From contig NZ_RRCM01000001.1 of NCBI RefSeq assembly GCF_003862485.1, positions 107,124 to 171,123 of the forward strand: a stretch of DNA of 64,000 bases. Reading direction: 5' to 3'. This stretch comes from Lachnoanaerobaculum orale (GTDB lineage Bacteria > Bacillota > Clostridia > Lachnospirales > Lachnospiraceae). The notes beneath the pieces were generated by a model that did no database searches, was not told where the DNA came from, and saw only the letters and a program-made list of their open reading frames with translations. Shown piece by piece: positions 1 to 14,243 of the stretch (the first letter of the stretch is position 1; the number at the start of each line of letters is the position of its first letter). Both the position numbers and the translations under genes were made by a program.

Positions 1-75
1 GTAATGCAGGTTCTTGAAGCTATTTGGAAGTCTTCAGAGAAAAACGAAGTAATAAAATTTGATGGAGGCCTGTAA
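1..75 (+). CDS. 3' end of an unidentified gene, possibly a Gfo/Idh oxidoreductase (partial)
   Basis: Only the last 24 codons are in the window, ending with TAA at 73-75. The stop overlaps the ATG of the ThuA-like gene by one base, so the two are translationally coupled. The tail (VLEAIWKSSEKNEVIKF) resembles the C-terminal helix of Gfo/Idh/MocA oxidoreductases, which often precede ThuA-like genes, but the piece is too short to be sure. Confidence 0.45.
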   Translation, partial: VMQVLEAIWKSSEKNEVIKFDGGL

Positions 76-806
76 TGCGAGTTGTTGTCTGGGATGAAAG
101 TTTGCATGAAAAAGAGGAAAGAGTACATGATGTTTATCCGAACGGTATTGCTAATGAAATAGCCGACGGAATAAAAAAAGAATTGTCCTTTATGAATGAC
201 TGTGAAATTAAATGTTCAAATTGCGAAATGGATGATTTCGGATTTACTGAAGAGATGTTGGATAACACAGATGTACTTGTTTTTTGGGCACACCGCAGTC
301 ATGATGCTTTTCCTGATGAAATAGTAGAAAGAATATATAACAGAGTAATGAAGGGAATGGGACTGATTGTATTGCATTCGGCTCATTTAAGTAAAGTCTT
401 TAAAAGGCTTATGGGTACAAGTTGTACATTAAAGTATCGTTTTGGAGATTATGCACGTATATGGACCACCACTCCCTCACATCCTATTGCCAAAGGAATA
501 CCTGAATATTTTGATCTGGATGAGGAGGAAATGTATGGGGAATTTTTTGATATACCTAAGCCTGATGATGTGGTTTTCACTACTTGGTTTTCGGGAGGCA
601 ATTTATTTAGAGGTGGTTGCACGTGGCAAAGAGGATATGGAAAGGTTTTTTATTTTCATCCGGGACATGATACAAATTTAGCATATTATAATCAGACGGT
701 TTTGAAGGTGATTAGTAATGCTGTTTTGTGGGCTGCTCCGATAAATGAAAGAAAAGATATTAGATGTGAAGAATATCCAAAAATAAATTTACGTAAAAAT
801 GTATAA
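75..806 (+). CDS. ThuA-like domain protein
   Basis: 243-residue cytoplasmic protein of the ThuA-like family, which has a class I glutamine-amidotransferase-like fold. Family features seen are the N-terminal MRVVVWDES strand, a central LIVLHSAHLSKVFKRLMG segment near residue 101, the HPIAKGIPEYF segment, the EEMYGEFF stretch and HPGHD near residue 195. ThuA proteins act with Gfo/Idh dehydrogenases (for example ThuB) on 3-keto sugars in trehalose and disaccharide use; the exact reaction here is not known. A GGAGG site at 64-68 lies 6 bases before ATG, and the start overlaps the stop of the preceding gene. It probably ends an upstream transcription unit, because a strong promoter follows at 894-922. 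Confidence 0.85.
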   Translation: MRVVVWDESLHEKEERVHDVYPNGIANEIADGIKKELSFMNDCEIKCSNCEMDDFGFTEEMLDNTDVLVFWAHRSHDAFPDEIVERIYNRVMKGMGLIVLHSAHLSKVFKRLMGTSCTLKYRFGDYARIWTTTPSHPIAKGIPEYFDLDEEEMYGEFFDIPKPDDVVFTTWFSGGNLFRGGCTWQRGYGKVFYFHPGHDTNLAYYNQTVLKVISNAVLWAAPINERKDIRCEEYPKINLRKNV

Positions 807-1010: not shown

Positions 1011-1823
1011 ATGAGATTAGGGTATATGACAAATGCATTTGGGCCTTTAGTTGGATCAGGAGCGGGAGTAACAAGTGTTAAAGATATCAGATATTTAACA
1101 ATGTGTGATGATTCGGAAGCTATGAAGACAATACGTGACATCGGATTTGAATATATCGAGGTGCTTGACGGAAATTTAACCAAGTATGCAGATAATATTG
1201 ACGAACTCAAAGAGATGATGAAAAATGCAGATGTACATATGATGAGCGTGTGTATAGGTGCCAATTTTATTTATAAAGATGCTTTGGAAGATGAGATGGC
1301 TCATGTTGAAGAAGTTTGTAAGGCGGCTAAGGAAGCAGGAGTTACTTATTTGGTAATTTGTGGAGGGGCAATAAGAACAGGTGGAATAAGACCGGGAGAT
1401 ACAAAGCTTTTAGCTGAAGGACTTGATGAATTGGAGAAAATAACCGACAAATATGGCTTGGTTGCAGCTTTCCACCCACATCTTGGATCAATTGCTGAGA
1501 GTCCAAAGGAGATAGATGAGCTTTTTGCATATTCAAATATTAAGGTTTGCCCGGATGTTGCACATCTCCTTGCAGGAGGATATGATCCGATTGAGTTTAT
1601 TAAGAAATACTACGACAGAATTGCATTGATACATTTAAAAGACCTTAATGATGAGGGATTTGCACCGCTTGGAACAGGAAGAGTTGATTTGGACGGAGTG
1701 ATTTCATATGTTAAATCAAGAGGTTATGACGGTGATTGGCTTGTAGAAGTGGACGGATATGCAGGTGATGCAAAGGAAGCTTGTAGAATCTCATATGAGT
1801 TTTTAAAGGGTAAACTTGTATAA
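1011..1823 (+). CDS. Sugar phosphate isomerase/epimerase family TIM-barrel protein
   Basis: 270 residues of the xylose-isomerase-like TIM-barrel family (AP endonuclease 2 superfamily), which includes IolE, IolI, hydroxypyruvate isomerases and 3-keto-glycoside epimerases or lyases. Likely metal ligands are H155 in FHPHLG, D182 and H185 in CPDVAHL, H208 in ALIHLKD and E246 in VEVDGY. GGAG at 1000-1003 is 7 bases from the ATG. It is the first gene behind the promoter and operator site and lies 34 bases before the lipoprotein gene. The substrate cannot be told from sequence; context suggests a sugar or keto-sugar imported by the adjacent ABC system. Confidence 0.85.
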   Translation: MRLGYMTNAFGPLVGSGAGVTSVKDIRYLTMCDDSEAMKTIRDIGFEYIEVLDGNLTKYADNIDELKEMMKNADVHMMSVCIGANFIYKDALEDEMAHVEEVCKAAKEAGVTYLVICGGAIRTGGIRPGDTKLLAEGLDELEKITDKYGLVAAFHPHLGSIAESPKEIDELFAYSNIKVCPDVAHLLAGGYDPIEFIKKYYDRIALIHLKDLNDEGFAPLGTGRVDLDGVISYVKSRGYDGDWLVEVDGYAGDAKEACRISYEFLKGKLV

Positions 1824-1857: not shown

Positions 1858-3027
1858 ATGAGAATTAAAGCGTTGGCAGCAATAGCACTTGCAGCAATGG
1901 TTATAAATGCAACAGGATGTGCACAAAACGGAGATAGCGGTAAGACTGAATCAGGTCAGTCAGCAGCGGAGCAGACAGTTAAAGAAGATAACTCTACAGG
2001 AAATACTCAAAGTTCAGGTGAAGAGGATCAAATATTGACAAAGGGACCTCATGGAGAGCAGGGAGTTAATGCCGATACTATCACTTTGAGCGATGAGCAG
2101 AAGAATGCAATAAAGGAAGGAAAATTCAAAGTTGCACTTTGTATGCATTATGGCGGAAATGACTGGGCAACAGCACAAATAAATGCGATTAAGGATACTT
2201 GTGCAGAGCTAAATATGGAAGTTGTAGCAGTAACAGATGCCAATTTTTCAGCTGAAAAGCAGGTTTCAGATATAGAAACTGTAATGGCATTAAAGCCTGA
2301 TGCAATAATTTCAATACCTACCGATATTACAGCTACAGCGGATGCTTATAAGAGAGCTATAGATTCAGGAATTAAAGTTGTTTTTATGGATAATGCTATG
2401 AAAGATATGGAAGGTGGAAAAGATTATGTATCTTGTGTATCTGCAGACAGTTATGGAAATGGAGTTGCTGCTGCCAGATTGCTTGGTGAGAAGTTGAACG
2501 GTAAGGGAAAAGTCGGAATGGTATATTACGATGCGGATTTCTTTGTTACCAACCAGAGAGATGCAGGTTTTAGAGATACTTTGAAGAAAGAATTTCCGGA
2601 TATTGAGATAGTTGCCGAGCAGGGATTTACAGATGAGAATGGTTGTAACGAGCAGGCAGATGCCATATTAACTCAGTTCCCTGATATTGACGGTATTTAT
2701 GCTTCATGGGATATACCTATGGAAGGAATACTTTCATCTGTAAGAGCTGCAGGAAAGGAAGGAAAGATTGCGTTAGTTGCAATTGACCTTGGTAATAACA
2801 TTGCACTTGAAATTGCAAAAGGCACAGTAGTGGGTGTAGGAGCACAGATGCCTTATGATCAGGGTGTTGCAGAGACTAAACTGGCTGCATTGTCATTGAT
2901 AGGTGAAAGCACACCGGCATATGTTGTATGTCCTGCAATGAAGGTAGACAAAGAGAATGTACTTGATGCATATAAGGCTGTTTACCATGTAGACGCTCCA
3001 AGCTGGCTTTTAGAAGCTGATAAGTAA
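1858..3027 (+). CDS. Sugar ABC transporter substrate-binding lipoprotein
   Basis: 389 residues from the ATG at 1858, chosen because AGGGAG stands just upstream and the signal peptide then begins MRIKALAAIALAA; a longer reading from 1816 would add charged residues before it. The lipobox is NATGC with lipidated Cys21, so the protein is anchored outside the membrane. A Ser/Thr/Glu-rich linker runs to about residue 60, followed by a type I periplasmic-binding fold of the ribose/galactose type (Peripla_BP_4). The mature domain is clearly homologous to the C-terminal half of the LacI-type regulator at 7851-9905; shared blocks include TNQRD, PDIDGIYASW versus PEIDGIYVSW, and DYVSC versus GYVSC. First component of the importer, with the ATPase and permease next. 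Confidence 0.93.
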   Translation: MRIKALAAIALAAMVINATGCAQNGDSGKTESGQSAAEQTVKEDNSTGNTQSSGEEDQILTKGPHGEQGVNADTITLSDEQKNAIKEGKFKVALCMHYGGNDWATAQINAIKDTCAELNMEVVAVTDANFSAEKQVSDIETVMALKPDAIISIPTDITATADAYKRAIDSGIKVVFMDNAMKDMEGGKDYVSCVSADSYGNGVAAARLLGEKLNGKGKVGMVYYDADFFVTNQRDAGFRDTLKKEFPDIEIVAEQGFTDENGCNEQADAILTQFPDIDGIYASWDIPMEGILSSVRAAGKEGKIALVAIDLGNNIALEIAKGTVVGVGAQMPYDQGVAETKLAALSLIGESTPAYVVCPAMKVDKENVLDAYKAVYHVDAPSWLLEADK

Positions 3028-3066: not shown

Positions 3067-4572
3067 ATGGAAAACACAGTATTAAAGATGGAAGGTATCT
3101 GCAAATCATTTGGCGATGCTAAAGTACTTAAGAATGTGCAATTTGAATTAAAACATGGAGAAGTTCATGCACTTGCGGGAGGTAACGGTGCAGGCAAATC
3201 CACATTGATGAAGATAATGACAGGAGTATATACGCATGATGAGGGAAAGATTTTCATTGATGGGAAAGAGACTGTAATTGAAAAACCTCTGGATGCTAAA
3301 GAGCAGGGTATCGCAATGATCTTCCAGGAACTTTCACTTGTACAAACAATGACGGTTGCAGAGAACATTTTCCTTGGTACGGAAATTGTTAAAAACGGTG
3401 TCAGAGATGTTAAAAAGATGAATGAAAAGACAAGTCAGATTTTGCATCGTCTTGGAATGGACATCTCTCCATCAACTGTTGTGTCTGAATTAAGTGTAGG
3501 AATGAGTCAGATGGTTGAAATTGCAAAAGCAGTTTCAAAAGATGCTAAAATTCTTGTTTTTGACGAACCGACAGCTGCACTTTCAGATTCAGAAACAAAA
3601 CGTTTATTTGAGATAATAACGCAGCTGAAAAATGAAGGGGTTTCGATGGTATATATATCCCATCGTATGAATGAGATTTTAAGTATATGTGACAGTATTA
3701 CAATTCTTAAGGATGGTGAGTATGTAACCACCCAGAATATAAAGGACATGACATTAGATAAAATAGTGTCTTATATGATGGGAGGAACTTCCGGAAAAGG
3801 TCATAAGTTTGAGTGGGTCGAAAGAAAACATGATGAAAATGCTAAAGATGTACTGAAGGTAGATCATTTAAAAATAAACGAGAAAATAAATGATATTTCA
3901 TTTTCATTAAAGCATGGTGAAATCGTCGGTTTTGCAGGATTGATGGGAAGTGGTAGAACAGAGATTCTTGAGTGTTTATTTGGATTGAGGAAGAAAGAAG
4001 GCGGAACGGTAATACTTGATGATAAGGAAGTTCATATAAAAAATCCTACTGAGGCTATAAAGAACGGACTTGCTTTTATTCCGGAAGACAGGAGAAAAGA
4101 GGGACTTGTATTGATGCATTCAATAAAAGACAATGCAGTACTCCCTATTTTGGATAGATTAAGTATTAAAGGAATATTTAATGATGATAAGAAGGAGCGT
4201 GCTCTTGTCGGAGAAAATATTAAAAAATTTGGAGTTAAGGCAGAGCATATTGATCAGGAAATAGGTCTTTTGTCAGGTGGGAACCAGCAAAAAATAGTTA
4301 TTGCTAAGTGGATGAATACTTGCCCTAAAGTGATTATGCTTGATGAACCTACCGCCGGAGTGGATATAGGTGCAAAAGGAGAAATACTTGAAATAGTAAG
4401 AAGTTTTGCGGATCAGGGTTGTGGAGTTCTCTTCGTGTCTTCTGAGCTTACGGAGATGATGGCAATATGTGATCGAATCATTGTACTATTTGATGGTCGA
4501 ATTACAGGAATGATAAGTCGAAAAGATATTAAATTAGAGGAGGAGTTACAGAATGCAATCCAAATGTCATAA
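3067..4572 (+). CDS. Sugar ABC transporter ATP-binding protein (RbsA/MglA type)
   Basis: 501 residues with two fused ATPase domains, the usual form for ribose/galactose-type importers. The first has Walker A GGNGAGKST at residues 38-46, signature LSVGMSQM near 139 and Walker B ILVFDEPTAAL. The second has the divergent GLMGSGRTEIL loop typical of RbsA, signature LSGGNQQK near 402 and VIMLDEPTAGVD. An AGGGGATATA ribosome site precedes the ATG. It overlaps the permease gene by 20 bases, so expression is coupled. It energises uptake of the ligand bound by the lipoprotein at 1858. Confidence 0.95.
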   Translation: MENTVLKMEGICKSFGDAKVLKNVQFELKHGEVHALAGGNGAGKSTLMKIMTGVYTHDEGKIFIDGKETVIEKPLDAKEQGIAMIFQELSLVQTMTVAENIFLGTEIVKNGVRDVKKMNEKTSQILHRLGMDISPSTVVSELSVGMSQMVEIAKAVSKDAKILVFDEPTAALSDSETKRLFEIITQLKNEGVSMVYISHRMNEILSICDSITILKDGEYVTTQNIKDMTLDKIVSYMMGGTSGKGHKFEWVERKHDENAKDVLKVDHLKINEKINDISFSLKHGEIVGFAGLMGSGRTEILECLFGLRKKEGGTVILDDKEVHIKNPTEAIKNGLAFIPEDRRKEGLVLMHSIKDNAVLPILDRLSIKGIFNDDKKERALVGENIKKFGVKAEHIDQEIGLLSGGNQQKIVIAKWMNTCPKVIMLDEPTAGVDIGAKGEILEIVRSFADQGCGVLFVSSELTEMMAICDRIIVLFDGRITGMISRKDIKLEEELQNAIQMS

Positions 4573-5512
4573 AAAGTTGGAATTGAGTAAATTTACTGTA
4601 TACATTGTACTTGGTATAGTATTTATATTTTTCTCAATTGCCTTAAACGGTAAGGGATTCATAGCTTCGGGAAACTTATTGAACATATTAAGACAGACAG
4701 CAATGGTATCTGTTATGGCCGTTGCCGGAGTATTTGTTCTCGGAGCGGGACAAATAGATTTGACGGTAGGTTCAACAGCTGCAATGAGTGCGATGTTTTC
4801 AGCCCTGGTTCTACAAGCTACAAATAATATGTTACTTGCTATTTTAGCATCTATATTATTTGGAATATTTGTAGGATTTATAAATGGCTTACTTGTAACA
4901 AAGCTTAAATTGCCATCATTCTTAGCCACACTTGGTATGATGCAGATGATTCGCGGAATGGCTATGTGGATAACCAATACCGCTGCCGTACCTATCAAAA
5001 ACCAAACTTTCAATACAATTTTTGGAACAGGTTATATTGGTGGTGTATCAGTTTTAATTTTGTGGACAATTGTTTTCTACATTATAGGATTTGTATTATT
5101 TAATAAGACAAGATTTGGACGTCATGCACTTGCGACAGGAGGAAATGAACTCGCAGCAAAATATTCAGGTTTAAAAACTGAAAAAATAAAAATGATAATT
5201 TTTATGATGTCAGGAGCGTTTGCAGCATTTGCAGGAATAATGTATGCAGGAAGAATGCAATCAGGTCGATATTCATTTGGAGACGGAGATGAAATGTCGG
5301 TAATCGCATCTGTAGTACTTGGAGGTGCTGCAATGTCCGGAGGAACCGGATCTATGATAGGAGCACTTGCAGGTTCTCTATTGATGGGAATGATTAACAA
5401 TGCTTTGATCTTAGCCGGTCTTTCATCCGCTCAGCAGAAAATTGTAAATGGAGCAATTATTATTTTCGCGGTAGCTTTAAGTAATATTGTTCAAAATAAA
5501 AAAAGGAAATAG
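4553..5512 (+). CDS. Sugar ABC transporter permease (RbsC type)
   Basis: 319-residue integral membrane protein of the BPD_transp_2 family, with about eight to ten hydrophobic segments. Family landmarks are VLGAGQIDLTVGSTAA near residue 65, TRFGRHALATGGNELAAKYSG near 190 and the C-terminal GGAAMSGGTGSMIGALAG. It starts inside the ATPase gene with GAGGAGG just upstream of ATG. Only one permease gene is present, as expected for a homodimeric ribose-type channel. Confidence 0.93.
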   Translation: MQSKCHKKLELSKFTVYIVLGIVFIFFSIALNGKGFIASGNLLNILRQTAMVSVMAVAGVFVLGAGQIDLTVGSTAAMSAMFSALVLQATNNMLLAILASILFGIFVGFINGLLVTKLKLPSFLATLGMMQMIRGMAMWITNTAAVPIKNQTFNTIFGTGYIGGVSVLILWTIVFYIIGFVLFNKTRFGRHALATGGNELAAKYSGLKTEKIKMIIFMMSGAFAAFAGIMYAGRMQSGRYSFGDGDEMSVIASVVLGGAAMSGGTGSMIGALAGSLLMGMINNALILAGLSSAQQKIVNGAIIIFAVALSNIVQNKKRK

Positions 5513-5530: not shown

Positions 5531-6706
5531 ATGAAGAAAATGGGAATTGGAGTTGTAGGAGCAGGATTTATGGGAAAAGCACATTGTGTTGCACTTTCCA
5601 ATATGCCGAAATTATTTACTGATGCACCTTATGTACCGGTATTCAAAACTGTATGTGATATAGTGCCTGAGATTGCAGAGGATTTTAAGGAGCGTTTTTC
5701 TTTTGAAAAGGCATGTACAAACTATATGGATGTAGTAAATGATCCTGAAATTGACATTGTATGTGTATGTACTCCAAATGATTCACATGCTGAAATCTCA
5801 ATAGCTGCACTTAAGGCAGGAAAGCATGTTATTTGTGAGAAACCGATTGCAACAAAGACAGAAGATGCAAAGGCTATGGCTGAGGCTGCAGAGGAAGCGG
5901 CAAAGAAGGGCATTGTATCTATGTGCGGATATCAGTATAGAAGAGTTCCTGCAATTGATGAAGCTAAAAAGATTATTGAAAGCGGAAGACTGGGAGAAAT
6001 CACAAATGTACGTGCACAGTATCTACAGAGCTGGTCTGCAGATCCAAGATCTCCATTGTCATGGCGTTTTGTAAAGGAAACAGCAGGTGCAGGTACACTT
6101 GGCGACATCTTTACACATGCACTTGATATTGCACAGTACCTTGCAGGTAATGTAACAGATGTAGTATCAATGGTAAAGACATACATAAAGGAGCGTCCGG
6201 TTCAGGAAGGCGGAGTAGACCTTTTAGGAACAGTAAAGCTTGGTGATGATGCAAAGAAGCAGGTTGTAGATGTTGATGATGAGGTATCAATACTTTGCAA
6301 CTTTGACAGCGGTGCAATCGGTAGCGTAGAAGCTACAAGAATGGCTTGGGGACGTAATAACTACCTTACAGTTGAGGTTCACGGAACAAAGGGTTCACTT
6401 ACATGGAACTATGAGCGTTTGAATGAGCTTGAAGTATGCTACGGTATGGAAGATAATGACGGGGAGAGAGGATTTAGAAAGATATATACAGGTCCTGCAA
6501 ACCCACATGGTGATGTAACTTGGAATATACCTGGAATGAACATTGGTTACGGTGAATTAAAGGCAATTGAAGCATATGAGTTTGCAAAGGCAGTTGTAGG
6601 AGGATATCAGCCAACTACAAACTTTAAAGTAGGATATCAGCTTGACAGAGTTTGTGAGGCGGTTCTTGAATCAAATGAGAAGAAAGCTTGGGTACAGGTT
6701 AAATGA
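5531..6706 (+). CDS. Gfo/Idh/MocA family NAD(P)-dependent oxidoreductase
   Basis: 391 residues. The N-terminal Rossmann domain has GVVGAGFMGKAH (residues 7-18) and the EKP motif (CEKPIATK, near 103) characteristic of the family, followed by the C-terminal alpha/beta substrate domain with GTLGDIFTHALDIAQYLAG. Family members oxidise sugar hydroxyls, for example at C2 of inositol or C3 of glucosides. AGGAGG stands directly before the start region. Its stop overlaps the next gene's ATG (ATGA at 6703-6706), which links it to the second TIM-barrel enzyme. This pairing of dehydrogenase and epimerase/lyase is what is seen in 3-keto-glycoside pathways. Confidence 0.92.
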   Translation: MKKMGIGVVGAGFMGKAHCVALSNMPKLFTDAPYVPVFKTVCDIVPEIAEDFKERFSFEKACTNYMDVVNDPEIDIVCVCTPNDSHAEISIAALKAGKHVICEKPIATKTEDAKAMAEAAEEAAKKGIVSMCGYQYRRVPAIDEAKKIIESGRLGEITNVRAQYLQSWSADPRSPLSWRFVKETAGAGTLGDIFTHALDIAQYLAGNVTDVVSMVKTYIKERPVQEGGVDLLGTVKLGDDAKKQVVDVDDEVSILCNFDSGAIGSVEATRMAWGRNNYLTVEVHGTKGSLTWNYERLNELEVCYGMEDNDGERGFRKIYTGPANPHGDVTWNIPGMNIGYGELKAIEAYEFAKAVVGGYQPTTNFKVGYQLDRVCEAVLESNEKKAWVQVK

Positions 6707-7617
6707 AAATAGGTTTTGTAAGTGCTATACTCGATAAAAGCGATTTCGAGGAAATGATTAGTGTAGCATCTGATTTGGGATACAAATGTGTCGAAGTAGC
6801 CTGCTGGCCTAAAGGAAAAGCAGAAAGAAGATATGCCGGTGTAAGTCATATTGATGTAGAAAATAATGATGACTCCTATGTATCATATATACAGAATTTT
6901 TGTAAAGATAAGGGAGTGGAAATTTCATCTCTGGCATATTACCCTAATCCTTTAGATGGAGACTTGGAGAAGAGAACTGCAGCTGTAGAGCATTTAAAGA
7001 AAGTAATACAGTTTAGTGCTAAACTTGGTGTTAATATGGTCACAACCTTTATAGGAAGAGATCAGAGCAAAAGAGTTGAAGAGAATCTGGAACTTGTAAA
7101 GGAAGTATGGCCACCTATCATTAAGCTCGCTGAAGAATGTGGAGTAAAAGTGGCAATCGAGAACTGTCCTATGCTGTTTGGTCCGGACCAGTGGCCGGGA
7201 GGGCAGAACCTGATGACAACACCGTCTATCTGGAAAAAAGTCTTCGATATTCTTCCAAGTGATAACCTAGGAATAAACTATGATCCGTCTCATTTTGTAT
7301 GGCAAATGATAGACTATATAAAGCCGATTTATGAATTTAAGGATAAAATTTTCCACGTTCATTTTAAGGATATAAAGCTCTATCGCGACAAATTAGATCA
7401 GGTGGGTGTAATGGCGTATCCATTGGAGTACATGTCACCTAAAATACCGGGTTATGGAGATGTTGATTGGGGAAAATATGTATCTGCATTAACTGATATC
7501 GGTTATGACGGATATACTTGTATAGAAGTGGAAGACAAATATTTTGAAGGATCAAAGGAAAAAGTTATTGATTCATTGAAGCTTTCAAAACAGTATATGA
7601 CAAATTTTGTAATCTAA
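6703..7617 (+). CDS. Sugar phosphate isomerase/epimerase family TIM-barrel protein (second copy)
   Basis: 304 residues, same superfamily as the protein at 1011 but clearly a different subgroup. Likely metal ligands are E152 in VAIENCPM, D194 and H197 in YDPSHFVW, H218 or H220 in FHVHFKDI and E273 or so in CIEVEDKYF. It is translationally coupled to the oxidoreductase by an ATGA overlap and is followed by the operon terminator. It could be an epimerase, an isomerase or a 3-keto-glycoside lyase; the sequence alone does not decide. Confidence 0.87.
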   Translation: MKIGFVSAILDKSDFEEMISVASDLGYKCVEVACWPKGKAERRYAGVSHIDVENNDDSYVSYIQNFCKDKGVEISSLAYYPNPLDGDLEKRTAAVEHLKKVIQFSAKLGVNMVTTFIGRDQSKRVEENLELVKEVWPPIIKLAEECGVKVAIENCPMLFGPDQWPGGQNLMTTPSIWKKVFDILPSDNLGINYDPSHFVWQMIDYIKPIYEFKDKIFHVHFKDIKLYRDKLDQVGVMAYPLEYMSPKIPGYGDVDWGKYVSALTDIGYDGYTCIEVEDKYFEGSKEKVIDSLKLSKQYMTNFVI

Positions 7618-7655: not shown

Positions 7656-7690
7656 AAGGCACTGATTCTATACGTTTCAGTGCCTTTTTT
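7656..7690 (+). terminator. Rho-independent terminator of the sugar operon
   Basis: Ten-base-pair stem, AAGGCACTGA (7656-7665) with TCAGTGCCTT (7677-7686), then a T-run to 7690. It follows the last catabolic gene by about 40 bases. Confidence 0.9.
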
Positions 7691-7850: not shown

Positions 7851-9905
7851 ATGGCATCCATAAAAGATATAGCCAAAATGGCAGGAGTATCTACCGCAAC
7901 AGTTTCACATGTAATAAATAAAACAAGATATGTAAGTCCTGAACTTGTGGAAAAGGTGGAACAGGCGATAAAGAATGCAGATTCTCCACCTAAATTTGTT
8001 GTTAGAAGACAAAAAAAAATCCGTGAAAATATACATCAATCTCAAAACGGAGTATTATTGTATATTTGTCAGTATGAAGAGGATAATTATGCCGGAGGAG
8101 TTTGGAGTAAGCTTAAGCCCATAATGGAGAGCAAGGGCTATACTATGATTCGTTGTAATTGTAACAGCGATCTTGAATTTGGACTTGTTGATAAGTTGTT
8201 ATCTGATCATGTAGAGATTATAGGTATGTTTGTCTCTGCAAGAACGGATGAGTTTTATATTCAAAAAATAGTGCGTACAACCAATATTCCCTGTGTTGTA
8301 ATTGGGAATGAAGTAGATGATGTGGCATTTGATAGAGTATCAACGGATATATATAAGGCTGCATATGATTGTACAATGCATTTTATAAGAAGCGGTCATG
8401 ATAAAATAGCGATTCTTATGGGAGATTTACTGAAAAGTTATAATAATGAAGTTATAAGGGGATATGAAAATGCTCTTGAATATGGTGGGGTTAAATTTAA
8501 AAATCGATATATTCTGCATAAAGACAGTGAAGAAAAAAAAATATCTGATATGTTATCAGAGCTTTTAGATGGAAATGATAATCCGAGTGCACTTTTAATT
8601 GCAGATTCTGAACATATTTACAGAGTTTATCGATATATGATGAAAAGAAATATAAGGTGCCCGAAAGACTTGTCTATTATGTGTATTGGAAATGAAGGCA
8701 GTGCACCATATCTTAATCCTGCTCTTTCTATGGCAGAGAATAATTTTGAATATATTGCAGAGAAAGCAATGGATCTTATGTTAGACAGAATAAAAGAATT
8801 ATCGGAAAAAGATAAGTATGAGGCTGTTCTTAAGAAGACCTCTAAAATACTTGTATCACCTAAAATAATTATTCGAGATTCGATAACAGGTACGGCAAGA
8901 GGTCCGTTTGGAGAAAAAGGTGCTGATATAAATATGCTTTCCTTAACGGAAAAAGAGATGGATATTTGCAGAATGAAAAGGTATACCGCCGTTATTGTCT
9001 ATCATTATATCGGAGCTTCATTTATGAAACTGCATGAACAAGGTGTCAGAGACGTTTTTGATAGAATCGGTATTACTGTAATTGCGGTAATGGGATGTCA
9101 GATGGATTTTTCTATGCAAAAAAAGCAGATAGAGAGTCTTCTAATGCTTGAGCCTGATATAATGATTGCATTTCCTGTAAACCATACATTAACACAGGAG
9201 GTATTTGAGGAAGTAATAAGAACGAAGACAAGGCTGATATTTATGGGACATGTACCGGATAGATTTGAAGGAAGCGGGTATGTATCATGTATCAATGTTA
9301 ATGAAAGGAGTAACGGAAGAAACATAGGCAGAGGACTTGGAGATTATCTGCTTTTGAATCATAAGAAAAACATAGGAATAATTCGATACGGACATCAATT
9401 CTACACTACAAACCAGAGAGATTTAGCTGTAGAACAGATCCTTAGAGAAGAATATCCTGAATTAAGAATTTGTGCGACAGAAGTATTTTCAAAAGATGAA
9501 TATGATAAAACAAAGGAGCTCCTGATGTGGCATCCGGAAATTGACGGAATATATGTCTCATGGGAAGGACCGGCAGTAAAAGTTTTGGAAGCTCTTCATG
9601 ATATAAACAGAGAGGATATTGCTGTTGCAACATCGGATCTGGACTTTTCGGTTGCATTGGATATGGCTAAAGGTGGATGCATAAAGGTATTAAGTGCGCA
9701 GCAGCCTTTTGAAGAAGGACAAGCGGCAGCGTTATGTGCAGCAAATGATTTACTTGGAAAAACGGTTCCATCATTTATTGCAGTCGAACCGGTATTTATA
9801 ACTATAGAAAACTTGATCAAATCTTGGAATACGATATATAAAACAAAGGCTCCTAAAGAAATAGTACAGGCTTTGCAAGAGAATGAGCAGTTTATGAGCG
9901 AATAA
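7851..9905 (+). CDS. LacI-family regulator with a second, SBP-like ligand domain
   Basis: 684 residues, about twice the usual LacI length of 330-350. Residues 1-48 form a canonical LacI helix-turn-helix (IKDIAKMAGVSTATVSHVIN), residues 65-345 a LacI-type sensor domain, and from about 376 to the end a second periplasmic-binding fold. That second domain is homologous along its length to the binding lipoprotein at 1858-3027 (shared TNQRD, IDGIYxSW and the LSxxE lead-in before the domain). There is no signal peptide, so both ligand domains are cytoplasmic. It probably controls the operon upstream through the palindromes at 936-965. GGAGAAGAG precedes the ATG. See the findings for the implied sensing mechanism. 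Confidence 0.93.
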   Translation: MASIKDIAKMAGVSTATVSHVINKTRYVSPELVEKVEQAIKNADSPPKFVVRRQKKIRENIHQSQNGVLLYICQYEEDNYAGGVWSKLKPIMESKGYTMIRCNCNSDLEFGLVDKLLSDHVEIIGMFVSARTDEFYIQKIVRTTNIPCVVIGNEVDDVAFDRVSTDIYKAAYDCTMHFIRSGHDKIAILMGDLLKSYNNEVIRGYENALEYGGVKFKNRYILHKDSEEKKISDMLSELLDGNDNPSALLIADSEHIYRVYRYMMKRNIRCPKDLSIMCIGNEGSAPYLNPALSMAENNFEYIAEKAMDLMLDRIKELSEKDKYEAVLKKTSKILVSPKIIIRDSITGTARGPFGEKGADINMLSLTEKEMDICRMKRYTAVIVYHYIGASFMKLHEQGVRDVFDRIGITVIAVMGCQMDFSMQKKQIESLLMLEPDIMIAFPVNHTLTQEVFEEVIRTKTRLIFMGHVPDRFEGSGYVSCINVNERSNGRNIGRGLGDYLLLNHKKNIGIIRYGHQFYTTNQRDLAVEQILREEYPELRICATEVFSKDEYDKTKELLMWHPEIDGIYVSWEGPAVKVLEALHDINREDIAVATSDLDFSVALDMAKGGCIKVLSAQQPFEEGQAAALCAANDLLGKTVPSFIAVEPVFITIENLIKSWNTIYKTKAPKEIVQALQENEQFMSE

Positions 9906-9974: not shown

Positions 9975-12900
9975 TTATGATATCACTTTTTTATTCTTAT
10001 TTTCTTCTTTCAAATTCTTTTGTGCTGTTGAGAGCATCAGCTTGATTCGGTTGAGCTGGTTAACTTCTGAAGCACCCGGATCATAGTCTACCGCTATGAT
10101 ATTTGCTTCAGGGTGTGAGCGGCGAAGCTCTTTGATAACACCCTTGCCCACTACGTGGTTCGGCAGACAACCAAAAGGCTGTGTACAGACGATATTCGGT
10201 GTGCCTGTCTCTATAAGCTCAAGCATTTCTCCGGTTAAGAACCAGCCCTCACCGGTCTGATTACCTATAGATACATAATCCTTTGCCATATTTGCAAGGT
10301 GATCTATTCTTGAAGGAGCGATGAAATGCTTGCTCTTTTCAAGCGCTTTTCTGGCATCACCTCTGAGAGCCTCAAGTACCTTGATACCTGCATTTGCCAT
10401 GAACGCCGTCTTCTTTGACATACCGAGGTGCTCGGCCTTGAAGTTGCTGTTGTAGAAGCTGTACAGCAAAAAGTCCATAAGATCGGGCATTACAGCCTCG
10501 GCACCTTCTTTTTCAAGCAATTCCACTATATGGTTATTTGCAAGAGGAGAGAACTTAACAAGGATTTCTCCGACTATACCTACTCTAGGTTTTTTGATAT
10601 TGAGTCTTGGAAGATTATCAAAGTCTTTTACAATGCCTCTGATATTTCTCTTAAACTCACCGAAGTTCGGTTTTCTTACAGACAGAGAGTCAATAACACG
10701 ATTTCTCCACTTTTTATGGAGTCTGTTGGCAGCACCTTTTTCCTTTTCATAAGGTCTGGTAGCATACAAGACTCTCATAAACAGGTCGCCGTATACGACA
10801 GCCTGCATAGCCTTAATAATCATGGCAGGAGTCATCTTAAATCCTTCGTTGGTCTCCATGCCGTTGGCATTGACAGAGATTACAGGTATCTGTTCCATAT
10901 CCACTTTTTCAAGAGCTCTTCTGATAAAGCCGATATAGTTGCTGGCTCTGCATCCGCCACCTGTCTGGCTCATAAAAATGGCGGTCTTATTCGGATCGTA
11001 TTTTCCTGAAAGCAATGCTTCCATTATCTGTCCTACAACTATAAGTGAAGGGTAGCAGGCATCATTGTTTACATATTTAAGACCGCAGTCTATAGCGGAA
11101 CGTGAATCATTTTGGAGTACCTCTACATGGTAGCCGAAAGCGTTGAGTGCCGGCTCCAAAAGGTCAAAATGTATAGGAGACATCTGTGGACATAGAATGG
11201 TGTATTCGTCCTTCATCTCCTTTGTAAACACCTTTCTGTGGTAAGCTGAGGATTGAATTTTTCTCTCATAGTTTTTCTTATCTCTTACACGCAGTGCGGC
11301 GATAAGTGAACGTATACGGATTCTTGCTGCACCGAGATTGTTTACCTCATCGATTTTAAGTACAGTATAGATTTTTCCTGAACCTGTAAGTATATCACTT
11401 ACCTGATCTGTGGTCACGGCGTCAAGTCCGCAGCCGAAGGAGTTTAGCTGTACAAGATCAAGGCAGTCATCTTTTTTTACAAGGCTTGCTGCCGCGTAGA
11501 GTCTTGAGTGATACATCCACTGATCGCTTACGATAACAGGTCTTTCAACCTTGGCAAGGTGAGATACGGAGTCCTCTGTAAGTACTGCAATACCGAATGA
11601 TGTTATCATATCAGGTATACCGTGGTGTATCTCAGGGTCAACATGGTAAGGTCTGCCTGCAAGTACAATGCCGTGGCGATTGTTCTTATGCAGCCACTCT
11701 ATAGTCTTTTCACCTTCACGCTCGATATCTTTCTTTGCCTGTATAAGCTCGGTCCAAGCCGCGTGAGCTGCGAACTTTACTTCTCTTTCATTGATATCGA
11801 ATTCATCCTTCATAACCTTTATAAGCTGATTTGTAAGTACCTCTTCATTTGTAAATGCCATGAAAGGATTTAAAAATCTTGTATTGGTCTCGCGGATTTC
11901 CTCCACATTGTTCTTTATATTCTCAGCATATGAAGTGACGATAGGGCAGTTGAAATGGTTGCCTGCATCAGGCTGCTCATTTCTCTCATAAGGTATACAA
12001 GGGTACCATATAGTGCGGATACCGTTCTTTATAAGCCATGAGATATGACCGTGTGTAATCTTGGCAGGATAGCACTCGGACTCACTTGGGATGGATTCAA
12101 TACCAAGCTCGTATATTTTCTTTGTTGACATAGGAGAGAGTACTGTTCTGAAGCCCAAGCTTCTAAAGAATGTTGCCCAGAACGGGAAGTTCTCATACAT
12201 ATTTAAAACTCTCGGTATGCCGATAGTACCTCTGAATGCCTTATCCGGAGTAAGCGGTTCATAGTCAAACATACGGTGATATTTGTAATCATATAGGTTT
12301 GGAACATCCTTTTTTACTCTGTCTTTTCCAAGACCTCTTTCACATCTGTTTCCTGATATGAAGTTTCTGCCGCCTTCAAATTTGTTTACTGTCATTACAC
12401 AGTTGTTGTTACAGCCACGGCATCTTGTCATAGAGGTGTCATACTGTAAGCCTATGATTTCATCAAGAGGAAGCATAGTTGTCTTTTTGTTTTCGTATCT
12501 TTCTCTTGCAATAAGAGCCGCACCGAAAGCTCCCATGATACCAGCAATGTCCGGTCTTGTCACAAATCCGCCTGAAATCTTTTCAAATGCACGAAGTACG
12601 GCGTCATTGTAGAATGTACCGCCCTGTACTACGATATGCTTTCCAAGGTCTGCCGCATTTGAAATCTTTATAACCTTAAACAGTGCATTTTTAATAACCG
12701 AGTATGCAAGTCCTGCTGAAATGTCTGCGACTGTAGCTCCTTCTTTTTGTGCCTGTTTTACATTTGAGTTCATGAAAACAGTACATCTGGTACCGAGGTC
12801 TACAGGACTCTTTGCAAAGAGGGCTTCCTTGGCAAAGTTTTGAACGGAGAAGTTTAATGAACCTGCAAAGGTCTCGATAAATGAACCGCAACCTGCCGAA

Positions 12901-14243
12901 CAAGCTTCGTTTAGCTGTACCGAATCTACAGTACCGTCTTTGATACGGATACATTTCATATCTTGACCGCCGATATCAAGTATACAGTCAACATTAGGTT
13001 CAAAGAATGCCGCCGCATAGTAGTGTGCTATAGTCTCAACTTCGCCCTCATCAAGCATAAATGCGGCTTTCAGTAGTGCCTCGCCGTAGCCGGTGGAACA
13101 TGAATAGACTATCTTTGCATCAGGGCGAATCTTATCCTTTACCTCTTTGATTGCTTTGATAGCTGTAGCTAACGGTGAGCCGTGGTTGTTTGAGTAGAAG
13201 TTCCAAAGCAGGCTTCCGTCTTCACCTACAAGCGCAATCTTTGTGGTGGTTGAACCTGCATCTATACCTAGGAAGATATTTCCGCTGTAATCCTCAAGCT
13301 TTCCGGTCTTTACACTGTGGCCGAAATGTCTCTGTGAAAACTCTTCATAGTCGGCTTCGTCCTTAAATAAAGGCTCAAGTCTGGCAACCTCATGTTCCAT
13401 CTTGATACCCTCACGAAGTTTTTTGATAAGGTCTGAGATACCGATCATAGAATCATTGCTTTCACAGTTGAGTGCGGAACCGATGGCTGCAAAAAGATGT
13501 GAATTTGGCGGGTCTACGATGTATTCGCCTGTAAGGTTGAGTGTTCTTATAAAGGCCTGCTTAAGTTCTGAAAGAAAGTGCAGCGGACCTCCAAGGAATG
13601 CCACATGACCTCTTATAGGCTTACCGCAGGCAAGACCTGAGATAGTCTGATTTACCACAGCCTGGAAAATGGAAGCTGAAAGGTCCTCTCTGGTTGCGCC
13701 CTCATTGATAAGCGGCTGTACGTCAGTCTTTGCAAAAACTCCGCATCTGGCAGCTATAGGATAGATTGACTTATAGTTTTTGGCATACTCATTAAGTCCG
13801 ATGGCATCTGTCTGAAGCAGTGAAGCCATCTGGTCGATAAAGCTTCCTGTACCTCCGGCACAGATACCGTTCATTCTCTGGTCGATACCGCCTGTGAAGT
13901 AGATAATCTTTGCATCCTCACCGCCAAGCTCTATTGCCACATCGGTTTGCGGTGCAACTGCCTTAAGTGCGGTAGCTACGGCTACAACCTCCTGTACAAA
14001 GGTTGACTTAAGATGCTTTGAAAGTGTGAGACCGCCTGAGCCGGTGATCATCGGAATGATATTTACTTCTCCTATTTTCTCAAAGGCATCTGAGAGCTGT
14101 GCCGCCAAAGTCCCCTGAATATTTGCATAATGTCTGCGATAATCTGAAAATACTACATCGTGATTGCTGTCAAGTATAGCAATTTTTACTGTAGTAGAAC
14201 CTATATCTATTCCAAGTACATAGGTTTTTTCTGTGTTTTGCAT
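9975..14243 (-). CDS. Giant 2-hydroxyacyl-CoA dehydratase activase-like protein
   Basis: 1422 residues. Two BadF/BadG/HgdC-type ATPase domains: the first begins [14 protein letters not shown] (about residue 11) and has [13 protein letters not shown], the second begins [13 protein letters not shown] (about 325) and has [13 protein letters not shown]. These Cys-bearing loops ligate the bridging [4Fe-4S] cluster in Hgd[10 protein letters not shown] plus NRC cluster follows near residue 607, then a DUF2229 region and an HgdB-like C-terminal region. The protein family is widespread in anaerobic Firmicutes; HgdC-type activases pass electrons to radical dehydratases by ATP hydrolysis, but the partner of the giant form is not established. 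No dehydratase subunit genes adjoin it here. It is a single-gene unit with its own promoter. AAGAGG stands before the start. Confidence 0.92.

Follow-up and report, generated by a model that had tools for sequence, protein, structure and literature searches.

When a LacI-type regulator carries, behind its own core, a complete second domain of the kind that sugar importers use to bind their substrate, which of the two domains senses the ligand, and where does the additional one come from? This question is raised by a protein of 684 residues encoded in a 64,000-nucleotide stretch of the Lachnoanaerobaculum orale genome (assembly GCF_003862485.1, contig NZ_RRCM01000001.1, positions 107,124 to 171,123 of the forward strand; this whole stretch is called the window), beside an operon for a sugar importer of the ATP-binding cassette (ABC) type and several catabolic enzymes. 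From sequence comparisons we favor, with little more than even confidence, the reading that the added domain took over sensing while the LacI core relays the signal, in a repressor of the sugar-import and catabolism operon. The parts of the regulator, in window coordinates, are the following.

7851 to 9905, plus strand: LacI-type regulator with a fused Peripla_BP_4 (CUT2-type) binding-protein domain, 684 residues (open reading frame, Pfam, BLASTP)
7857 to 7976, plus strand: LacI helix-turn-helix, residues 3-42 (Pfam; top NCBIfam score PurR)
8034 to 8885, plus strand: LacI core, residues about 62-345, with G and V at the usual effector Asp and Arg places (Pfam, alignment)
8898 to 9902, plus strand: fused binding-protein domain, residues 350-684, without a signal peptide of its own (Pfam, BLASTP, trees, dN/dS)

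The open reading frame is free of internal stops, and three domains were matched in it above the Pfam cut-offs: the LacI helix-turn-helix at residues 3-42 (56.6 bits), Peripla_BP_3 at residues 177-344 (87.7 bits), and Peripla_BP_4 at residues 382-637 (79.5 bits), the last covering positions 3-257 of a profile of 258 and representing, in consequence, a full-length domain. A LacI helix-turn-helix followed by a Peripla_BP-type core is the layout of the LacI/GalR family, and the best NCBIfam score was obtained with PurR (144 bits), far below its cut-off of 501. With BLASTP, residues 350-674 align with residues 62-387 of the importer's binding lipoprotein (92 of 329 positions identical, 28%; 179 bits; E 2e-54), and the TNQRD, IDGIY.SW and YVSC blocks lie inside this alignment. 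When the window's own genome was searched with the whole regulator, this lipoprotein was the sole other match to the binding-domain part at E ≤ 1e-3. The same genome contains 16 Peripla_BP_4 matches, 12 of them above the Pfam cut-off; these include the regulator and the lipoprotein, and some of the ten others are found in ordinary LacI genes. The three-part architecture given in a preliminary description of this locus, i.e. a LacI head and core with a complete binding domain homologous to the lipoprotein, is thus borne out by Pfam and BLASTP. The start of the second domain, which had been placed at about residue 376, has to be moved, given that homology begins at about residue 350, where G-P-F-G-E matches the G-P-H-G-E found just before the domain of the lipoprotein. 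This G-P-[FH]-G-E motif lies about 30 residues N-terminal of the Pfam domain, and its G-P..G-E letters are kept in all 17 fused proteins and in 10 to 13 of the 13 free ones, which argues that the binding protein entered the fusion in its mature form, N-terminal extension included, and lacking the signal peptide. The fused domain continues the LacI core in one frame and has neither the signal peptide nor the lipobox of CUT2-type binding proteins. Relatives of the same length are present in Lachnoanaerobaculum sp. OBRC5-5 (82% identity) and L. saburreum (86%), so the gene is not an assembly artefact.

Selection on the regulator was estimated from the ratio of nonsynonymous to synonymous substitutions (dN/dS) in three pairs of Lachnoanaerobaculum species. 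This ratio was 0.040-0.057 for the fused domain, 0.037-0.043 for the free lipoprotein, and 0.13-0.16 for the LacI core of the regulator; an ordinary LacI core of the genus gave 0.10-0.17 (one gene, four pairs). Among 15 fused proteins the binding domain was more alike than the LacI core in all 105 pairs, with mean identities of 47% vs 28% (the near relatives L001 and L002 are left out of this count, and of the shuffle counts and the counts over 14 fused-regulator loci given below). Judged from these comparisons, the fused domain is under strong purifying selection and is preserved as well as a working binding protein.

The residues with which each domain would hold a ligand were also compared. 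For the LacI core, we take the usual effector residues to be the equivalents of LacI Asp274 and Arg197. The Asp and the Arg occur together in none of the 17 fused cores, in eight of ten ordinary LacI proteins (a convenience sample, five from the window's genome and five from other loci), and in none of 15 fusions of another type, LacI-SBP_bac_1, described below. The Asp is lost in 16 of the 17 fused cores, and in the window's genus both residues are lost. The hinge-helix motif, assumed here to have the form N..A[RQKL].[LF], is absent from all 17 fused proteins, present in seven of the ten ordinary LacI proteins and kept in the 15 LacI-SBP_bac_1 fusions; three ordinary LacI proteins also lack it, so the motif is not strictly defining. 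In the fused domain, pocket residues were placed by an alignment of the 17 fused and 13 free domains and by alignment to the ribose-binding-like protein 2ioy, using what we take to be its sugar-contact residues and the Asp89 numbering of ribose-binding protein. All 17 fused domains have R523, W571, Q617 and also H385, and 16 of them have D596. In the multiple alignment the Asp89 place is acidic in 12 of the 13 free domains and in none of the 17 fused ones, and 13 positions are switched between the two groups. Two expectations of the preliminary description are not supported by these counts: that the regulator would sense its ligand with the same site as the lipoprotein, given the change at the Asp89 place even though R523, W571, D596 and Q617 are kept, and that a second signal would enter through the LacI domain, given that the Asp and the Arg are not found jointly in any fused core.

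The same genome encodes a second fusion, a LacI protein of 727 residues with an SBP_bac_1/8 domain (L015 265-2448; G000:C1:1032964-1035147); as a general rule it is fair to say that a normal LacI regulator has a single ligand domain, but this genome already provides an exception. Fusions of this LacI-SBP_bac_1 type gave matches in 18 of 250 Lachnospiraceae genomes, the match spanning both parts in 17 of the 18. In the tree of LacI parts they form a clade separate from that of the 17 fused regulators (L065, a near copy of L064, was left out of this tree and counted among the 15 proteins scored for effector residues). The same loss of effector residues thus goes along with each of two separate binding-protein gains. 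The second fusion adjoins genes that by eye resemble those for an importer whose lipoprotein is broadly of the same type; the idea that it is a copy of its neighbor lipoprotein was discarded, as no significant likeness was found (E 0.023).

Two sites in the window are candidates for the DNA sequences that this regulator recognizes.

954 to 965, no strand assigned: predicted operator ATTTGCGCAAAT, 46-57 bases ahead of the gene that starts at 1011; conserved in L001 and L002
788 to 797, no strand assigned: predicted operator TTTACGTAAA, within the end of the ThuA gene

Both are even palindromes with a central CG and are enriched at the fused-regulator loci, and we consider them putative operators. 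The L002 counterpart of TTTACGTAAA, at 1764, precedes the same TIM-barrel gene by 242 bases, and L001 has none there. Two TTTACGTAAA sites 136 bases apart (L016 5946/6082) precede the first gene of the operon, to the left of the window; the regulator's own upstream region has neither TTTACGTAAA nor TTTGCGCAAA. The 14 fused-regulator loci (273,572 bases) contain 20 TTTACGTAAA and 11 TTTGCGCAAA sites, 31 in total where 0.6 would be expected, while 30 dinucleotide shuffles gave means of 0.2 and 0.37 and maxima of 2 and 2, respectively. For 30 of these sites, as read by eye, a regulator, importer or catabolic gene follows within about 250 bases, and the remaining site, in L030, is inside an unrelated gene. 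The information of the palindromes is confined to about 12 bases. The LacI parts of the 17 fused proteins are monophyletic (100/98) and divide into two main branches, A (eight proteins) and B (nine), that match those of their binding domains. The class of palindrome follows the regulator clade: apart from the window, four loci of clade A (L020, L021, L022, L030) carry the GCGC type, and seven of clade B (L023-L028, L032) carry the ACGT type. The recognition helix of the window's regulator carries T-A, which is intermediate between most other members of clade A (T-S in three, I-S and A-A in one each) and clade B (I-A or V-A). Three of the four WTTTRCGYAAAW sites of the window's genome are within this operon. 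At control loci with free relatives and without a fused regulator, TTTRCGYAAA was not found in L061, L062, L087, L088, L090 and L091, and the seventh, L089, has one TTTGCGCAAA. A proposal that the half-sites are turned round relative to those of PurR was dropped, because other known LacI operators fit no simple rule.

The favored reading would work as follows. A CUT2-type binding-protein domain, acquired once, would have become the ligand sensor of a cytoplasmic repressor. The imported sugar, or an early product of it, would bind in the cleft of the fused domain in the cytoplasm and the cleft would close; the LacI core, retained for dimerisation and as a relay, would pass this closure on to the heads, and the heads would leave ATTTGCGCAAAT and TTTACGTAAA, so that the importer and the enzymes are derepressed. 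We infer the ligand, the binding to the palindromes, the direction of the response and the relay from an architecture, a selective constraint, residue losses and palindromes that were computed.

Among Lachnospiraceae genomes, 10 of 397 encode a full-length relative of the regulator; the figures are 3 of 295 for the order, 2 of 291 for the class and 1 of 299 for the phylum, in overlapping samples that each include the window's genome. These counts are lower bounds, since the threshold was E ≤ 1e-60 and two to four candidates were scored per genome; they rule out that the architecture is a common one. Two genomes of the same genus, G088 and G387, have no fused regulator at E ≤ 1e-60. Eight of the 14 loci contain an importer whose binding protein belongs to the family of the lipoprotein, and in two no importer is in view (L030, which reaches the contig end, and L031). 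A tandem pair of fused regulators is present in L028 (7846-12149). Free relatives of the lipoprotein adjoin ordinary LacI genes in G036, in G152, on a Klebsiella plasmid and on a Metabacillus plasmid, and in Mesorhizobium and Aminobacter they are near a gene of the ROK family; most of these loci also have Gfo/Idh/MocA and isomerase-like genes, with the Aminobacter locus lacking them.

Several observations weigh against the proposal that the added domain senses and the core relays. The LacI core evolves at a normal rate and shows no decay: it had looked fast beside the fused domain, but the ordinary LacI control lies in the same dN/dS range, and synonymous divergence (dS) was near 1 in several of these comparisons. 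The effector Arg alone is kept in 11 of the 17 fused cores. In the fused domains, the Asn of TNQRD is present in 7 of 17 vs 12 of 13 free ones, and the first-loop Trp is Phe in the window's genus. The loss of the acidic residue hinges on the alignment, because the phmmer pairwise alignment with 2ioy introduces a gap that sets D470 where the multiple alignment has G466, and the position of D470 is acidic in 7 of 17. The two AlphaFold models (mean pLDDT 51 and 60) are too poor for a spatial comparison of the pockets. Both operator classes occur within the window's genus and even in the one operon of the window. L029 and L031 have no exact match to either palindrome; L031 also has no importer, and in L029 no palindrome precedes the importer genes, about 110 bases before its regulator being in view. 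Across 15 whole genomes, WTTTRCGYAAAW was commoner than its reversed control in eight, equal in one and rarer in six, among them the window's genome (4 vs 11), and two genomes of the genus without a fused regulator have 7 and 1; in the absence of a genome-wide excess, only the clustering at fused-regulator loci counts as evidence. The motif is not exclusive either, since an ordinary LacI gene in G077 has ATTTACGTAAAA about 200 bases upstream; in L082 (1074-1085), ATTTACGTAAAA is located in the gap that separates an ordinary LacI gene, of recognition type I-A, from a divergently oriented one. Finally, in four of the 14 loci (L024-L027) the importer has a binding protein of an unrelated family and palindromes precede it nonetheless; this importer is RbsB-like and is beside a GH32-like enzyme, as determined with Pfam for L024 and by eye for the others, which are alike. 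The rarity of the architecture and the eight loci with a related importer agree with the preliminary description; these four loci do not.

The origin of the second domain was examined in trees. With 44 rows, the 17 fused domains are monophyletic (100/100), and a larger group that adds 13 free members of the lipoprotein family is set apart (99/99) from other binding proteins, eight of which are from the window's genome; the earlier placement of the second domain in the family of the adjacent lipoprotein was therefore correct. After the addition of six free proteins from five plasmids, the fused rows (17) and the family (36) were both recovered with 100/100, and the neighbor lipoprotein fell within a separate branch of seven free proteins (96/96); the L002 lipoprotein, whose frame includes a run of N, entered the trees with its last 390 residues only. 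When the window's domain was compared with 25 free proteins, five outscored the neighbor lipoprotein and one tied with it, the best being a Klebsiella protein (35%, 219 bits, against the 28% and 179 bits of the neighbor). On these sequences, one old fusion inherited as a unit would be the simplest account. A recent local duplication, in which the regulator copied the lipoprotein next door, would agree with the adjacency of the two genes and with their full-length homology, but the 17 fused domains are monophyletic across genera and families, and a forced clade of the genus's three regulators and three lipoproteins was 196 log units worse in the approximately unbiased test (p 3.6e-54; the six rows were named after the first tree had been viewed, and the idea itself came from the preliminary description). 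We regard such a duplication as extremely improbable, and the claim that the regulator carries a copy of its own transporter's binding protein does not stand, since the fused domains cluster outside the branch of the lipoprotein and the joint clade is rejected.

The remaining alternatives concern what the two domains do. A real possibility, though one we hold at somewhat less than even, is that the pocket of the fused domain was remodelled and senses a molecule other than the importer substrate, e.g. a pathway intermediate, which is compatible with the added domain being the sensor. The change at the Asp89 place, the 13 switched positions and the four loci where the importer has an unrelated binding protein point in this direction; the other aligned pocket residues are kept, however, the Asp89 place depends on the alignment, and the changed residues are no more than candidates for lining the pocket. 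It is unlikely that two different small molecules are bound, one by the LacI core and one by the fused domain, as the preliminary description proposed for a two-signal integrator: both domains score above their family cut-offs, the core is under ordinary purifying selection and its pocket Arg survives in 11 of 17 proteins, but its Asp is missing from 16 of 17, no fused core has the pair, and the window's genus has neither. Still less probable, in our opinion, is that the fused domain is mainly an assembly module that ties dimers together so that paired operators loop, ligand binding being secondary or lost. Pairs of palindromes that could serve such looping are present in L016 (5946/6082), L001 (1102/1248), L024 (12001/12084) and L025 (8783/8951), but their near-whole-turn spacings were reckoned by hand and the helical phasing is not significant, and the invariance of R523, W571 and Q617 in the 17 fused domains speaks against such a role.

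Among known systems, Btr of Bacillus subtilis, which consists of an AraC DNA-binding domain and one siderophore-type binding-protein domain, may be regarded by analogy as the closest precedent for the principle. It, too, acts in the cytoplasm and carries a domain related to the binding protein of the importer that it controls, and it differs in that an AraC domain and a siderophore-type domain take the places of the LacI helix-turn-helix and Peripla_BP_4. Btr activates feuABC-ybbA. With the LacI/GalR family the regulator shares the helix-turn-helix and the Peripla_BP_3 core, the nearest members by profile score being PurR, RbsR and CcpA; it departs from the family in its extra binding-protein domain and in the hinge motif and effector pair that none of the 17 proteins has. 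LacI motifs are reported to be mostly 16-22 bases long (PMC4052901), against about 12 informative bases in the palindromes described here, two measures that are not quite alike. The LacI-SBP_bac_1 fusions resemble the regulator in having a LacI head and core, a C-terminal binding protein of importer type and, in 15 proteins, no effector pair, and differ in the family of the binding protein, in a hinge motif kept in 15 of 15 and in their separate LacI clade. In engineered chimeras, a binding protein is reported to be joined to a DNA-binding domain and to drive it; these are synthetic, whereas the natural regulator keeps a LacI core in between (PMC6079105). In the open literature no natural fusion of a LacI regulator with an importer binding protein was found at the level of listings, subscription papers and protein-annotation databases being outside the scope of this search. 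At that same level, the parts are of known kinds, and the combination, the operators and the twice-seen loss of effector residues were not met with.

From these comparisons a broader idea can be put forward tentatively, as possible rather than probable: LacI repressors may at least twice have lost their own sensing residues after gaining an importer-type binding protein, the core turning into a pure relay and a transport protein into a cytoplasmic transcriptional sensor, and in the case studied here the hinge motif may also have been lost and the operator shrunk to about 12 informative bases. If this is true, DNA binding and allostery would both proceed differently from what is known of LacI proteins, and the loss of effector residues in two separate fusions would show the sensor role moving between domains. 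A natural sensor that joins a transcription factor to an importer binding protein, with predicted operators, makes the transfer of the signal from cleft to core directly testable, and the fused regulator could be a template for biosensor design.

The operon and its surroundings contain the following features.

75 to 806, plus strand: ThuA-family protein (Pfam)
1011 to 1823, plus strand: xylose-isomerase-like TIM barrel, IolE-like, below cut-off (Pfam/NCBIfam)
1858 to 3027, plus strand: binding lipoprotein of the importer, Peripla_BP_4 (Pfam/NCBIfam; lipobox-like start by eye)
3067 to 4572, plus strand: sugar ABC transporter ATPase, RbsA/XylG/AraG-like (Pfam/NCBIfam)
4553 to 5512, plus strand: sugar ABC transporter permease, CUT2 type (Pfam/NCBIfam)
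5531 to 6706, plus strand: Gfo/Idh/MocA dehydrogenase, levoglucosan dehydrogenase-like (NF052479, 535 bits, below the cut-off of 650)
6703 to 7617, plus strand: second xylose-isomerase-like TIM barrel (Pfam/NCBIfam)
7658 to 7690, plus strand: terminator-like hairpin and T run in the gap between operon and regulator, also in L001 and L002 (by eye in the alignment)

The first gene of the operon, to the left of the window (L016 6132-7199), encodes another Gfo/Idh/MocA dehydrogenase. Judged by these genes, the imported sugar or early product that would act as ligand may be a levoglucosan-like anhydrosugar or glycoside. The set resembles the levoglucosan cluster of Bacillus smithii S-2701M, which comprises a LacI gene, an ABC sugar importer, levoglucosan dehydrogenase, two isomerase-like enzymes and a second Gfo/Idh/MocA enzyme (PMC7676230). 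The B. smithii cluster has two permease genes, against one in the window, and its regulator is annotated just as LacI family (PMC7676230); where B. smithii has levoglucosan dehydrogenase, the window has the enzyme that scores below the NF052479 cut-off. Because the hairpin and T run separate the operon from the regulator gene, the latter is probably transcribed on its own. Downstream of the regulator, the minus strand encodes a protein of 1422 residues (9975 to 14243), presumably a 2-hydroxyacyl-CoA dehydratase activase fused to further domains.

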